DNA from: Bacteroidota bacterium | GTDB taxonomy: Bacteria > Bacteroidota > Bacteroidia > UBA8524 | Assembly: GCA_008933805.1 (NCBI GenBank) | Contig: WBUH01000003.1 | Coordinates: 186,001 to 250,000 of the forward strand | Direction of reading: 5' to 3' | Length of the DNA: 64,000 bases | In this document: piece after piece, positions 59,508 through 64,000 of the stretch | How positions within the stretch are numbered: the first letter of the stretch is position 1 | How the letters are laid out: every line of letters begins with the position of its first letter | The notes under the pieces: generated by a model | The model's database searches: none | The model's input: the letters and a program-made list of their open reading frames with translations, nothing else | What the model was told of the DNA's origin: nothing | Program-made: the position numbers and the translations under genes

Positions 59508-61043
59508 ATGACAAAGCTCTATTCTTTATCTGCATTACTTTTCGCCTTAGTAATTGGCACAATACATGGCGTAGCCCAACCTGTTGTTTCGGCCACAATA
59601 GAAGCAAATAATGTAAAAGCCCAAGCTAATACAGCAGGCTTACTATTTAATAATATAGGTTTAGGCAGTGGGGCATTTATAGCCCCAAAAGGTCCCGGCG
59701 GCCCATCATCAATATACGCTTCAACGCTTTGGATAGGCGGGCTTGATAACGGCGGCAACCTACACATGGCTGCGCAAACTTATCGCCAAGCGGGAAACGA
59801 TTTCCACAGCGGGCCTATTGACCAACTAGCAGGAACACCCGTGAATTCGGTAGCTTTTGATTCTTTATGGCGCATTACAAAAGCCGATTATCTTTCTGCC
59901 CGTCAAGGGGTTTGGACAGACAACTTGCGTAGATGGCCTGTATCATACACTACTGCTAATGGCACTTACAAACTAGCTCCTTTTCACGATGCCAATAACG
60001 ATGGCAAAATGGATGTTAGCGGTGGTTTAGAATACCCCATCTTCCCCGGTGATGAAGCACTCTTTTTTGTATATAATGATAAAACCCTTCACGGAGAAAC
60101 AAGCGGCAGCCAATTAGGTGTTGAAGTAGCCGGTTTTATGTATCAACTAAAAAGCGCCACTAACGAGTATTTAAACAATACCGTGTTTGTTGATTACTAC
60201 ATCACCAACAAAAGTTCAAACGCATACTATGATGTGCTTGCGGGTATTTGGACAGATTTTGACTTGGGTAATTATGCTGATGACCGCATCGGATCCGATT
60301 CTGCACGCAATATGTATTATGCCTACAACGGCGACGATAACGACGAAGGAGTAATAGGTTACGGTACTACTCCTGCTGCAATGTGTGTGATGTTTATTAA
60401 CCAACCTATGTATGCTACAATGGGATACGGTAGCGACTTTAGTGTAATTGGCAACCCTATGTTGGCCGAACAGTACTACGGCTACACACGCGGTATTTGG
60501 AAAGACGGCAGCCCGCTTACTTACGGAGGCAACGGCTACAACACAGGCTCACGCACCCGTTATACGCTTAGTGGAAACCCTTGTGCTAATACCGGTTGGA
60601 CTGAACAAAATTCAGGAGTTGGAGCCGGAGACAGGCGTATGCTTGGCTCGGTAAACTTAGATACCCTGTTGCCCGGAGGCGTTAAAAAAATATCACTAGC
60701 CTACTTATGGAGTAGAGCTGCTACGGGCGGAGCAAAAGGAAGTCTTTGCAAAATGTTTGACCAAGCCGATAGCCTTATCAACTGGACAAATAACAACCCT
60801 CCCCTTTCAGTAAAAAATCCCGCTACTGAAACTGTTAAAATTTATCCCAACCCTGCAACAAGCGCAGTAACCATCGAAACCGAGGAAGAAAATATTAAGG
60901 TTTCACTGTTTGATATTAGTGGTCGTGAGGTGTTATTATCCACCCAAAAAACAATAGATATTTCAGGCTTAACAAAAGGTATTTATGTGGTACGCGGTAC
61001 TGCAGGTACTACCTATATCAGCCAAAAAATACTGGTCCAGTAA
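59508..61043 (+). CDS. Secreted protein with T9SS type A sorting domain, paralogue of the gene at 63245
   Basis: A 511-aa exported protein. The ATG at 59508 begins a signal peptide (MTKLYSLSALLFALVIGTIHG then VAQ). The body has FWIGGLD-like segments (TLWIGGLDNGGNLHMAAQTY; HSGPIDQLAGTPVNSVAFDS; YPIFPGDEALFFVYND; GIWTDFDLGNYADDRIGSDS) shared with the truncated protein at 63245. The C-terminal 70 residues (VKIYPNPATSAVTIETEEEN to the end QKILVQ) are a T9SS sorting domain. Function is unknown; export to the cell surface is inferred. It lies upstream of an ECF sigma gene, from which a terminator separates it. Confidence 0.9.
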   Translation: MTKLYSLSALLFALVIGTIHGVAQPVVSATIEANNVKAQANTAGLLFNNIGLGSGAFIAPKGPGGPSSIYASTLWIGGLDNGGNLHMAAQTYRQAGNDFHSGPIDQLAGTPVNSVAFDSLWRITKADYLSARQGVWTDNLRRWPVSYTTANGTYKLAPFHDANNDGKMDVSGGLEYPIFPGDEALFFVYNDKTLHGETSGSQLGVEVAGFMYQLKSATNEYLNNTVFVDYYITNKSSNAYYDVLAGIWTDFDLGNYADDRIGSDSARNMYYAYNGDDNDEGVIGYGTTPAAMCVMFINQPMYATMGYGSDFSVIGNPMLAEQYYGYTRGIWKDGSPLTYGGNGYNTGSRTRYTLSGNPCANTGWTEQNSGVGAGDRRMLGSVNLDTLLPGGVKKISLAYLWSRAATGGAKGSLCKMFDQADSLINWTNNNPPLSVKNPATETVKIYPNPATSAVTIETEEENIKVSLFDISGREVLLSTQKTIDISGLTKGIYVVRGTAGTTYISQKILVQ

Positions 61044-61069: not shown

Positions 61070-61096
61070 AAAACCTGCTCTACGGGGCAGGTTTTT
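61070..61096 (+). terminator. Intrinsic terminator of the T9SS cargo gene
   Basis: A stem (aaacctgc / gcaggttt, 8 bp) with loop tctacggg and a T-run, 27 bp after the stop codon at 61043. Confidence 0.78.
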
Positions 61097-61184
61097 TATT
61101 TTTGTATTTAATCCCCTGTTTCACAGGCAACATTTTACCTGTTTTGTTGTATCTTGTAGAAAATTACCCTGGGGAAAAGAGCTC

Positions 61185-61754
61185 ATGACCGAAGAGGAGT
61201 TGATAAAAGGATGCATACGGGAAGACCGCACTTGTCAGCAAAAGTTATATAAAACTTATGCAGGCAAGATGTTGGTGGTGTGCCTTCGGTATTGCAGGAG
61301 CAGGCAGGAAGCAGAGGATATTTTGCAAGACGGTTTTATACGGGTATTTGACAACATAAAAAAATTCTCTTTCAACGGTTCGTTTGAAGGATGGGTGAGA
61401 AGGATAATGATTAACTGCGCGTTGCGCAACTATCGCAAAAGCAGTTATCAAAAAGAGCAGATTGGAATAGCCGATGATTACGATATACCTGAAGACACAG
61501 GAGTATATGATAAGTTATCGGAAAAGGAGTTGATGGTGATGATAAACGACTTACCCGAAGGGTATAAAATGGTTTTTAACCTTTATGCCATTGAGGGATA
61601 TAGTCACAAAGAAATTGCTGATACGCTGGGCATAAACGAAGGGACGTCGCGCTCGCAATTAAATAAGGCACGTAAGCAATTGCAAAAAAAATTATACGAT
61701 ACAAAAGGCTTTAAGGAACCTGCTGAACAAGCAGATAAAATTTTGACAGAATGA
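61185..61754 (+). CDS. ECF RNA polymerase sigma factor
   Basis: A 189-aa sigma-70 group IV factor from the ATG at 61185 (MTEEELIKGCIREDRTCQQK). A TTG or other start upstream would add a hydrophobic stretch not belonging to the family. Region 2 is at residues about 25-90 (DILQDGFIRVFDNIKKFSFN; WVRRIMINCALRNYRKSSY). Region 4 is at about 125-175 (INDLPEGYKMVFNLYAIEGY; SHKEIADTLGINEGTSRSQL). It overlaps the next gene by 4 bp (ATGA), so the two products are translationally coupled. The partner is the membrane-spanning barrel protein below. Confidence 0.94.
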   Translation: MTEEELIKGCIREDRTCQQKLYKTYAGKMLVVCLRYCRSRQEAEDILQDGFIRVFDNIKKFSFNGSFEGWVRRIMINCALRNYRKSSYQKEQIGIADDYDIPEDTGVYDKLSEKELMVMINDLPEGYKMVFNLYAIEGYSHKEIADTLGINEGTSRSQLNKARKQLQKKLYDTKGFKEPAEQADKILTE

Positions 61755-63220
61755 GTATGGAGACTAATAAGATTGATGAACTGTTCAGGAGTAAGTTGGG
61801 CGATTATTCGTTAGACGCACCTGACCATGTTTGGAAGAGTATTGATGCAAAACGTACACCGCTGCACAAAGCGATAAACTACTTTAAACGTAGAAAAGCC
61901 GCTGTGGTCGGTGCATTCTTGCTAATTGCAGGCATTAGTGCTGCAGCATTTATTGGGTTTGGCCCCACTGCTGATACACAGCAAACGGCTGTAGTTACTT
62001 CGCAATCAACAACCACAACCCCTGTGGCCAATAGCGAAACAAGCGGCAGCAATGCAGCAGTAGCTACTACTCCATCCGCTACTTCTGCTGAAAACCTTGC
62101 AAACACTAACACGCCTGCCACAAACAGTACTACTGTTTATACAACACCAAACCGCACAAATACCAACGATGGAGGTAATACCCGCAACGGTGGCAACAAC
62201 GGCGGCGGTACCGATGCAACTTCTCACACGGTAACACCCGCTACAAACCCAACACAATCAACTTCTTCAACAGATAATAATACAACCCCTATAGTTACAA
62301 CTTCTACTACTACAATAACTGATAACAGTACTCCGGCACTTACGAATGAAGAAAAAGAAGTAGTTGTTGCCGATGCACAACCTGTTTCTGAGCCGGTAGC
62401 AACCGCTAATAACGAAACCGAAGGCACCGAAGCTACTGATGCGGCTGAAAAAGCTAACAAACAAGCTATTGAGCCTCAAAAACAACGTTGTAACAGCCTA
62501 ACCGCTGATTTGTATGCAGGAATAGGTTTTGCAGGCCGCAGCTTAAACGCAAACGGTATTGGTGCAGGATATTTTGCAGCTAAAAAACAAGCTGAAAGCT
62601 ACACCCCTTCGTTCACTGTAGGCGCAAGGTTTAACTTAGACCTTAATAAATCAAAAACATTGAAGTTGCGCGTAGGCTTGCAATACACCCGTGTAGGTGA
62701 AAAATTGAACTACAACGCTGAACAAACCTATACCCGCACTCAAGTTTATATCGGTGATATTATCGACCCTGTAACCGGACAAGTAATTGGCCACACCGAC
62801 CCTGAATACAGGCAAGTTACTGAAACCCGCAGGGTTGCTGTAAGTGCTAATAACTCGTACACCTTTATTGATGTACCCGTTCAGTTAGAGTACAGTTTCT
62901 TCAGAACTGAAAAATACAGCCTGTTTGCTACAGGTGGTGCCAGTGCAAACCTTCGCTTCTCACAACGCGGCAGCCAATTAAATACTGACTTAAGCGGTGC
63001 CCACGAGATACGCAGCAACAACCCTTACAAGCCAACAACAGGCCTAAGCCTATTGGCAGGTATCGGTGGCGAATATAAATTCAGCCCCATATCTAAATTC
63101 TCGTTGCTTGCCGAAGGAACTTACAGCCACGGTCTAACCAACGTAATGCAAAGCAATGCAGGTATGCGTCAAAGCTTCCGCACATTTAATGTAAGTGTTG
63201 GCCTTCGCTACCGTTTCTAA
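61751..63220 (+). CDS. Trans-envelope protein: cytosolic anti-sigma-like head, inner-membrane helix, long linker, outer-membrane barrel
   Basis: A 489-aa protein. Residues 1-45 are a cytosolic basic/acidic helix region (TNKIDELFRSKLGDYSLDAP) of the type seen at the start of Bacteroidota anti-sigma proteins. Residues about 49-71 are one membrane helix (AAVVGAFLLIAGISAAAFIG). Residues about 72-246 are Thr/Asn/Ser-rich and low complexity. Residues about 249-489 are a beta-barrel domain (SLTADLYAGIGFAGRSLNAN; FNLDLNKSKTLKLRVGLQYT; SVGLRYRF with terminal Phe). There is no cleaved signal peptide. Topology is inferred: the head would hold the sigma factor, with the barrel in the outer membrane. Start is ATG at 61751, overlapping the sigma gene. 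Confidence 0.82.
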   Translation: MSMETNKIDELFRSKLGDYSLDAPDHVWKSIDAKRTPLHKAINYFKRRKAAVVGAFLLIAGISAAAFIGFGPTADTQQTAVVTSQSTTTTPVANSETSGSNAAVATTPSATSAENLANTNTPATNSTTVYTTPNRTNTNDGGNTRNGGNNGGGTDATSHTVTPATNPTQSTSSTDNNTTPIVTTSTTTITDNSTPALTNEEKEVVVADAQPVSEPVATANNETEGTEATDAAEKANKQAIEPQKQRCNSLTADLYAGIGFAGRSLNANGIGAGYFAAKKQAESYTPSFTVGARFNLDLNKSKTLKLRVGLQYTRVGEKLNYNAEQTYTRTQVYIGDIIDPVTGQVIGHTDPEYRQVTETRRVAVSANNSYTFIDVPVQLEYSFFRTEKYSLFATGGASANLRFSQRGSQLNTDLSGAHEIRSNNPYKPTTGLSLLAGIGGEYKFSPISKFSLLAEGTYSHGLTNVMQSNAGMRQSFRTFNVSVGLRYRF

Positions 63221-63244: not shown

Positions 63245-64000
63245 ATGCTAAAACAAGCGGCATTAAGTATATTGGCTCTTGCCTCGCTAACTAAGTTGGC
63301 GGGGCAATCCTATTTTACAACACTATCTTCCAATAACCTCAATGCTACCGTCAATGCAAACGGTATCTTGTTTAATCGGGGGCTTGAGGCTCCAAAAGGC
63401 TCAGGTACAAAATCCATAAGCATCTCGCAGTTTTGGATTGGAGGGAAAAGCAACGGTAACCTGCACATTGCAGCCCGTTTAAACGATAGCCTTAAAAACG
63501 ATTTCTGGCCAGGTCCTATTGATACTGTTAATGGCAATGCAGGCGACAGTACTTTTTGGAATTCGATTTACAAAGTAAGTGCGGCTGAAATTGCTACGCA
63601 CAAAACCGACTATAATAAAAACGGGTACATAATGCCCGATGGTATTAAGCACTGGCCGGGCAGCAACCCTACTCAACAACCTTTTAAGCAGGTATTGGCA
63701 AAGTTTGTTGATTACAACGCTAACCGTATTTATGAACCCGAAATGGGCGAGTACCCTTTTATAAAGGGCGACGAAGCTGCATATTTTATTGTAAACGATA
63801 AAGCCAATACACATTTTGCTAGCGGCGGTATGCCTATGGGTGTTGAAGTACAAGGTTTGGCCTATGTGTATGCCAATAATCCGGCATTAGCCAACACTGT
63901 TTTTTTAGAATTAACTTTTATTAACCGCTCTACTAATAATTACGATTCGGTATTTGCAGGTGTTTGGACTGATTTTGAACTGGGTGCTAAAGGGGATGAG
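63245..64000 (+). CDS. Secreted protein, partial, paralogue of the T9SS cargo at 59508
   Basis: Open from the ATG at 63245 to base 64000 (252 codons, no stop), so the C-terminus is outside the window. Signal peptide MLKQAALSILALASLTKLAG, then QSYFTTLSSN. Segments matching the protein at 59508 are ISQFWIGGKSNGNLHIAARL, LKNDFWPGPIDTVNGNAG, YPFIKGDEAAYFIVNDKA and FAGVWTDFELG. The same order and spacing show that the genes are paralogues. Because the 59508 protein has a T9SS sorting domain, this one probably has one too. It starts 24 bp after the barrel gene and may be in its operon. Confidence 0.85.
   Translation, partial: MLKQAALSILALASLTKLAGQSYFTTLSSNNLNATVNANGILFNRGLEAPKGSGTKSISISQFWIGGKSNGNLHIAARLNDSLKNDFWPGPIDTVNGNAGDSTFWNSIYKVSAAEIATHKTDYNKNGYIMPDGIKHWPGSNPTQQPFKQVLAKFVDYNANRIYEPEMGEYPFIKGDEAAYFIVNDKANTHFASGGMPMGVEVQGLAYVYANNPALANTVFLELTFINRSTNNYDSVFAGVWTDFELGAKGDE

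Follow-up and report, generated by a model that had tools for sequence, protein, structure and literature searches.

How might an event at the cell surface be reported to an ECF sigma factor in the cytosol? The question is raised by two overlapping genes near the end of the window, by which we mean the whole analysed stretch of 64,000 nucleotides (Bacteroidota bacterium, contig WBUH01000003.1, positions 186,001 to 250,000). An earlier note, made from the letters and reading frames of this DNA, had proposed that a single protein reaches from the sigma factor through both membranes to the surface. The relevant features, in window coordinates and all on the plus strand, are as follows (Dma-type refers to a protein family introduced below).

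61070..61095, +, intrinsic terminator between the upstream T9SS gene and the sigma operon (11-pair stem, T-rich tail)
61126..61154, +, putative ECF-type autoregulatory promoter, GGCAACATTT (−35 type) followed by TATCT (−10 type), from conservation
61185..61754, +, ECF sigma factor gene, 189 residues, ECF21-like, Dma cognate (Pfam and profile ranking)
61751..63220, +, gene of the Dma-type protein, 489 residues (domain order and relatives)
61751..61897, +, putative anti-sigma head, residues 1-49, predicted cytosolic (AlphaFold, head profile, sigma adjacency)
61898..61957, +, inner-membrane helix, residues 50-69 (sole hydrophobic segment, positive-inside bias of 7:0, AlphaFold helix 37-69)
61958..62485, +, disordered T/A/N/S-rich periplasmic tether, residues 70-245 (composition, pLDDT below 50 over residues 70-240)
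62498..63217, +, C-terminal 8-stranded outer-membrane barrel, residues 250-489, ending in YRF (PF13568, AlphaFold, Foldseek)
63245..64000, continuing to about 64783 in the genome, +, gene of a T9SS-exported surface protein, 512 residues, third in the operon (Por_Secre_tail, gene order)

Domain organization of the 489-residue protein

The sigma frame contains the Pfam domains Sigma70_r2 and Sigma70_r4_2, and the start codon of the following frame lies inside its stop codon, in an ATGA at 61751-61754. This overlap had been described before, and the coordinates of the two frames (61185-61754 and 61751-63220) agree with it. The protein encoded by the second frame has one hydrophobic segment, a 19-residue window from residue 50 with a mean Kyte-Doolittle value of 2.43. 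Seven Lys or Arg residues are found in the 20 residues that precede the helix and none in the 20 that follow it; given that this is the sole hydrophobic segment, the bias predicts that the first 49 residues, the head, are cytosolic. The polar stretch ahead of the helix exceeds the length expected of an ordinary signal peptide, and the worry that a cleaved signal peptide might take the place of the helix is thus not borne out: no signal-peptide-like N-terminus was found.

An AlphaFold model of the single chain was made with 24 relatives. In the head it places helices at residues 5-16 and 25-34 and the start of a third, 37-69, with a pLDDT of about 60-70; Trp28 is near-invariant. The linker (residues 70-245) consists for 75% of Thr, Asn, Ser, Ala, Gln, Gly and Pro (25% Thr, 12.5% Ala, 12% Asn and 8.5% Ser), residues 70-240 are modelled without structure, and its length varies from 128 to 235 residues across the 24 aligned relatives. 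The C-terminal domain matches OMP_b-brl_2 (PF13568) with an E-value of 1.7e-8, above the cut-off of that family, and strands extend across residues 250-488, mostly with a pLDDT above 90. The best 8-stranded barrels retrieved by Foldseek were NspA (1p4t, TM 0.73 of target) and OmpA (9fzd, TM 0.69 of target), so that the domain is predicted to resemble a closed barrel, a point on which the proposal depended. Similarity to PorT/SprT-type barrels (NF052311) is weak, 24.5 bits against a cut-off of 125, and those barrels are not described with an anti-sigma head. A search of the PDB with the Dma profile gave no sequence relative.

Pfam, AlphaFold, Foldseek and composition therefore agree on the domain order given in the earlier note: a cytosolic head, one helix, a linker of about 175 residues and a barrel ending in Phe. 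Together they support a single chain in which a sigma-linked, predicted cytosolic head is joined through an inner-membrane helix and a tether to an outer-membrane barrel. The chain would be inserted in both membranes at once. The sequence gives no account of how a barrel is delivered to the outer membrane by a chain with a cytosolic N-terminus, and this counts against the dual-membrane reading.

Relationship to the Dma family

An arrangement of this kind is already known. The Dma proteins of Bacteroides thetaiotaomicron begin with an anti-sigma domain, continue through a transmembrane helix into a long disordered tether and end in a barrel; their genes adjoin ECF21 sigma genes and the family is described as confined to Bacteroidota (PMC13088901, 2026). 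The class was introduced by Pardue et al. (2024, PNAS), as cited in that paper, which names Dma1, Dma2 and Dma3 and, as cognate ECF21 sigma factors, Das1 and Das2. Upon deletion of dma2, das2 and the downstream operon genes go up by 2.5-6 log2 units, and the product of BT_1557, the gene after that of Dma2, is a DUF4943 protein (PMC13088901). The window protein resembles the Dma family in its putative anti-sigma head, single transmembrane helix, disordered tether, C-terminal barrel, adjacent sigma gene and occurrence in Bacteroidota.

The named Dma reference genome is that of Bacteroides sp. GM023. The family profile of the window protein finds two proteins there, of 346 and 422 residues, with the Dma architecture and each behind a sigma gene. 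The gene of the first is followed by that of a DUF4943 protein and the second adjoins a NigD-like gene; by operon content, the first of these is the orthologue of Dma2. Profile-profile alignment of the window family with the GM023 pair using hhalign gave a probability of 98% and an E-value of 2e-13, with the barrel aligned and the head not; a profile of the head matches the two GM023 heads weakly, with E-values of 1e-4 and 1e-6. The 489-residue protein is thus a new and distant member of the Dma family, with a likeness at the profile level. With a window-family sigma profile, the two Dma-linked sigma genes rank first and second among 71 matches in GM023, at 167 and 151 bits, while the next sigma scores 84 bits. 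From this ranking of the GM023 Dma-linked sigmas, rather than from an ECF21 model, the window sigma gene is provisionally assigned as ECF21-like.

The idea of one chain from the surface to the sigma factor thus stands as to topology, which is backed by prediction and homology; as a new solution it does not, the arrangement being known as the Dma family with its adjacent ECF21 sigma (PMC13088901). The same applies to the contrast that had been drawn with anti-sigma factors dependent on a second protein as receptor. It is consistent with the window protein, in which Pfam finds no FecR domain at E-values up to 1 and likewise no plug or TonB-receptor domain, but it is already in print. No ASDI or zf-HC2 type domain was matched in the head by Pfam at E-values up to 1 either. 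The window locus differs from Dma of B. thetaiotaomicron in its third gene, which encodes a T9SS-exported surface protein instead of a DUF4943 or NigD-like protein, in belonging to an organism with a T9SS, and in a sequence similarity that is remote.

Conservation of the head and its linkage to sigma genes

Four other genomes of the window's family encode the full Dma chain at 26-32% identity, and the upstream sigma gene in these genomes is 64-67% identical. For a wider view, the head profile was built from the head and helix only (71 positions), adjacency not being used in its construction, and was searched against Bacteroidota. Within the class Bacteroidia it has matches in 94 of the 149 genomes sampled, or 72 of 99 genera. 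A sigma gene lies directly upstream in 71 of the 71 distinct head proteins for which upstream DNA was covered, five further table entries having been excluded as cut-off copies of proteins counted elsewhere. As the profile is blind to adjacency, this is an independent link of the head to sigma. Whether the same fusion beside a sigma gene would be found across Bacteroidota had been posed as a check, and it recurs in relatives. The head is rare outside the class: of the 36 genomes with a match in a sample of the phylum, 34 belong to it and two to other classes. All long relatives examined retain the single-chain architecture, and none is split into two genes. A natural sigma-Dma fusion, of the Dma3 type, was sought among the fetched loci, in which long frames proved to be only alternative starts over the sigma gene.

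These counts bear on the plainest alternative, namely that the protein is an ordinary outer-membrane barrel with an unusually long N-terminal signal region and that the neighbouring sigma gene is coincidental. PF13568 barrels are indeed common, with 21 matches in the window's genome, but a sigma gene directly upstream in every covered head protein, and a conserved head of 49 residues with a conserved Trp ahead of the hydrophobic stretch, make this very improbable indeed. Since both recur in relatives, architecture and sigma adjacency are not due to chance. The head beside sigma genes in so many genera would also help to explain why so few ECF sigma factors of Bacteroidetes could be paired with a recognised anti-sigma factor, ASDI accompanying only 6% of them (PMC7406223).

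The three-gene operon and its putative promoter

Two paralogous T9SS-type surface proteins flanking the sigma and Dma genes had been suggested as the regulated output. Both are real: the frame at 59511-61043 and that from 63245 on each have a Por_Secre_tail domain, their products are 35% identical, and the genome contains SprA (2495 bits), so that a T9SS is present. The downstream gene begins 24 bases after the Dma gene and belongs to the operon. Its product has a signal-like start and a type A sorting domain (Por_Secre_tail, E-value 1e-14), and is modelled by AlphaFold with a pLDDT of 89 as an N-terminal beta-sandwich-like domain and a C-terminal sorting domain. In Foldseek searches, the latter matches T9SS sorting domains (TM up to 0.87 of target), while the beta-sandwich is weakly like GH116/GH94-type enzymes (TM about 0.3 of query). 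The upstream gene lies outside the unit: it was considered as part of it and rejected, being separated by the terminator at 61070-61095, absent from that place in relatives and outside the linked clades of the tree described below. In the class sample of 295 genomes, 259 encode homologues of this T9SS surface protein family (59511-61043, 63245-64000), some of them as parts of 1300-residue frames; the main part of the protein is without a named Pfam domain.

In each of the four family relatives, the orthologous T9SS gene follows the Dma gene at a distance of 43-53 bases. Forty further regions were taken from matches to the downstream T9SS protein; the sigma-Dma-T9SS order is present in 13 of these, from five other families, a proportion that is no estimate of frequency, as four regions were chosen for an adjacency already seen and five for belonging to a family in which the order had been observed. 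The result is the recurrence itself: 18 genomes in six families in all have the conserved operon. Most gaps in the 13 regions are of about 57 bases or fewer, down to a 4-base overlap; one exceeds 500 bases, and one is a 42-base overlap that may reflect the choice of start. On a tree of the T9SS protein family the linked state requires 3 changes, against 13.7 in shuffles. Most Dma genes are without this T9SS neighbour.

The sequence GGCAACATTT precedes the sigma gene without variation in all five genomes from the family of the window, and TCT follows CAAC there at a distance of 19-20 bases. Across the class, CAAC-N18..20-TCT is present in 22 of 60 sigma upstream regions (shuffles: mean 1.3, maximum 6), and in 21 of the 60 the spacing from CAAC to TCT is exactly 19. 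Conservation of this −35 type element before the sigma gene points to an ECF operon autoregulated from the GGCAACATTT/TCT promoter, and operon structure and promoter motif together would place the downstream T9SS gene under the control of the sigma factor. Outside sigma operons, a genome-wide search gave few matches and a control pattern also matched; with counts so close to the control, a wider regulon is a lead only. One such match, the closely similar GGCAACATTTTAC...TATCT on contig C14 of the same genome (L126:2383-4774), is situated just upstream of the gene of a 786-residue FG-GAP protein that has a T9SS sorting domain of type A, a possible member of the regulon of the window's sigma factor. 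The conserved sigma-Dma-T9SS operon and the ECF-type promoter go beyond such published Dma work as we could trace, and are modest additions to it.

Instead of being output, the T9SS surface protein might be the signal, binding, once exported and retained at the surface, to the loops of the barrel so that the operon senses T9SS export in a feedback loop. The tight linkage to the Dma gene, conserved in six families, and its clustering on the family tree would fit such a role, and in Porphyromonas the T9SS-type protein PorA feeds an ECF sigma cascade through a link that is unknown (PMC7712824). The argument is wholly inferential, a T9SS partner is missing from many Dma operons, and Dma2 of Bacteroides works with other downstream genes (PMC13088901); we regard this role as possible, if on the whole improbable. 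Its fuller form, in which the T9SS-coupled Dma branch is an autoregulated closed loop where one chain reports the state of the surface or of T9SS export to sigma, is more doubtful still.

Proposed mechanism

A Dma-type sigma/anti-sigma switch, with an autoregulated operon that includes the T9SS gene, is very probably the best explanation of the locus. Residues 1-49 would bind the ECF sigma factor on the cytosolic side of the inner membrane, keeping it off RNA polymerase, and helix 50-69 would anchor the chain in that membrane. The disordered tether would cross the periplasm to the 8-stranded barrel in the outer membrane, the loops of which would be exposed at the surface. An event in the outer membrane or at the cell surface may release sigma, be it a ligand on the loops, a barrel that fails or is lost, or cleavage of the tether. 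Freed sigma would then act at the GGCAACATTT/TCT promoter to transcribe its own operon, the downstream T9SS surface protein gene included, and perhaps also a few other genes of T9SS-exported proteins. Such derepression of the operon agrees with the effect of the dma2 deletion on das2 and downstream genes in B. thetaiotaomicron (PMC13088901). Gene order, domain order, their recurrence and the conservation of the promoter are what the data show; fold and topology are predictions, while binding of sigma, insertion in both membranes at once, the nature of the signal and the regulon are what we infer for this scheme.

Membrane anti-sigma factors are usually released by proteolysis. This favours a variant in which the tether is cleaved while the chain assembles or afterwards, barrel and anchored head separate, and RseA-like proteolysis of the remaining stub is the switch; a tether that is disordered and so variable in length would be easy to cut. 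If barrel and head worked apart, fission into two genes would be expected in some lineages, but the chain is single in all long relatives, and we think this course of events unlikely.

The Dma-type switch resembles FecI/FecR/FecA in that a signal from the outer membrane is carried to an ECF sigma factor. It differs in that FecR does not reach beyond the periplasm and depends on a TonB-dependent receptor that is a separate protein, domains of either kind being absent from the window protein. In PorA-PorXY-SigP of Porphyromonas gingivalis, a surface protein with a T9SS sorting domain likewise feeds an ECF sigma factor, but through a two-component system, with an unknown link between surface and inner membrane and no dual-membrane anti-sigma factor (PMC7712824). 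EcfO/Reo of Bacteroides fragilis (Ndamukong 2013), another Bacteroidota ECF sigma factor with its own regulator, is cited beside Dma in PMC13088901. The present data would extend single-protein signalling between cytosol and outer membrane from gut Bacteroides to most sampled Bacteroidia genera. The conserved T9SS operon provides a concrete output, or signal, and bears on how surface events reach ECF sigma factors in bacteria with a T9SS; if the T9SS protein itself were sensed, T9SS export would be tied to transcription, as for PorA in Porphyromonas (PMC7712824).

Other partners with a Dma-type head

In the window's own genome, sigma genes are accompanied by at least five partners with barrels, one with PKD and T9SS domains and one with VWA/YfbK domains. 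The second kind is encoded at L066:1412-3269 (contig C1:35911-37768), where an ECF21-like sigma gene, preceded by the same CAAC-N19-TCT promoter, is followed by the gene of a partner with a Dma-type head, a membrane helix and a T/N/S-rich linker. In place of the barrel, this partner has a pair of PKD domains and, at its C-terminus, a T9SS sorting domain of type B (TIGR04131, 39.6 bits, the cut-off being 35). It may be an anti-sigma factor that bears a T9SS export signal on its tail, as though this end of the chain were passed to the T9SS. A second anti-sigma factor with a T9SS sorting-domain tail was not found among the loci examined. On contig C23 (L071:1018-3692), a sigma gene is followed by that of a protein with a weak head match, a helix and PKD, VWA and YfbK_C domains, and the head-helix chassis thus seems to carry different outer modules. 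Short partners of about 245-293 residues, with head and helix and each behind a sigma gene, are found at five loci (L017, L018, L022, L029 and L038); without a recognised domain past the helix, they form a barrel-less branch of the same anti-sigma family.
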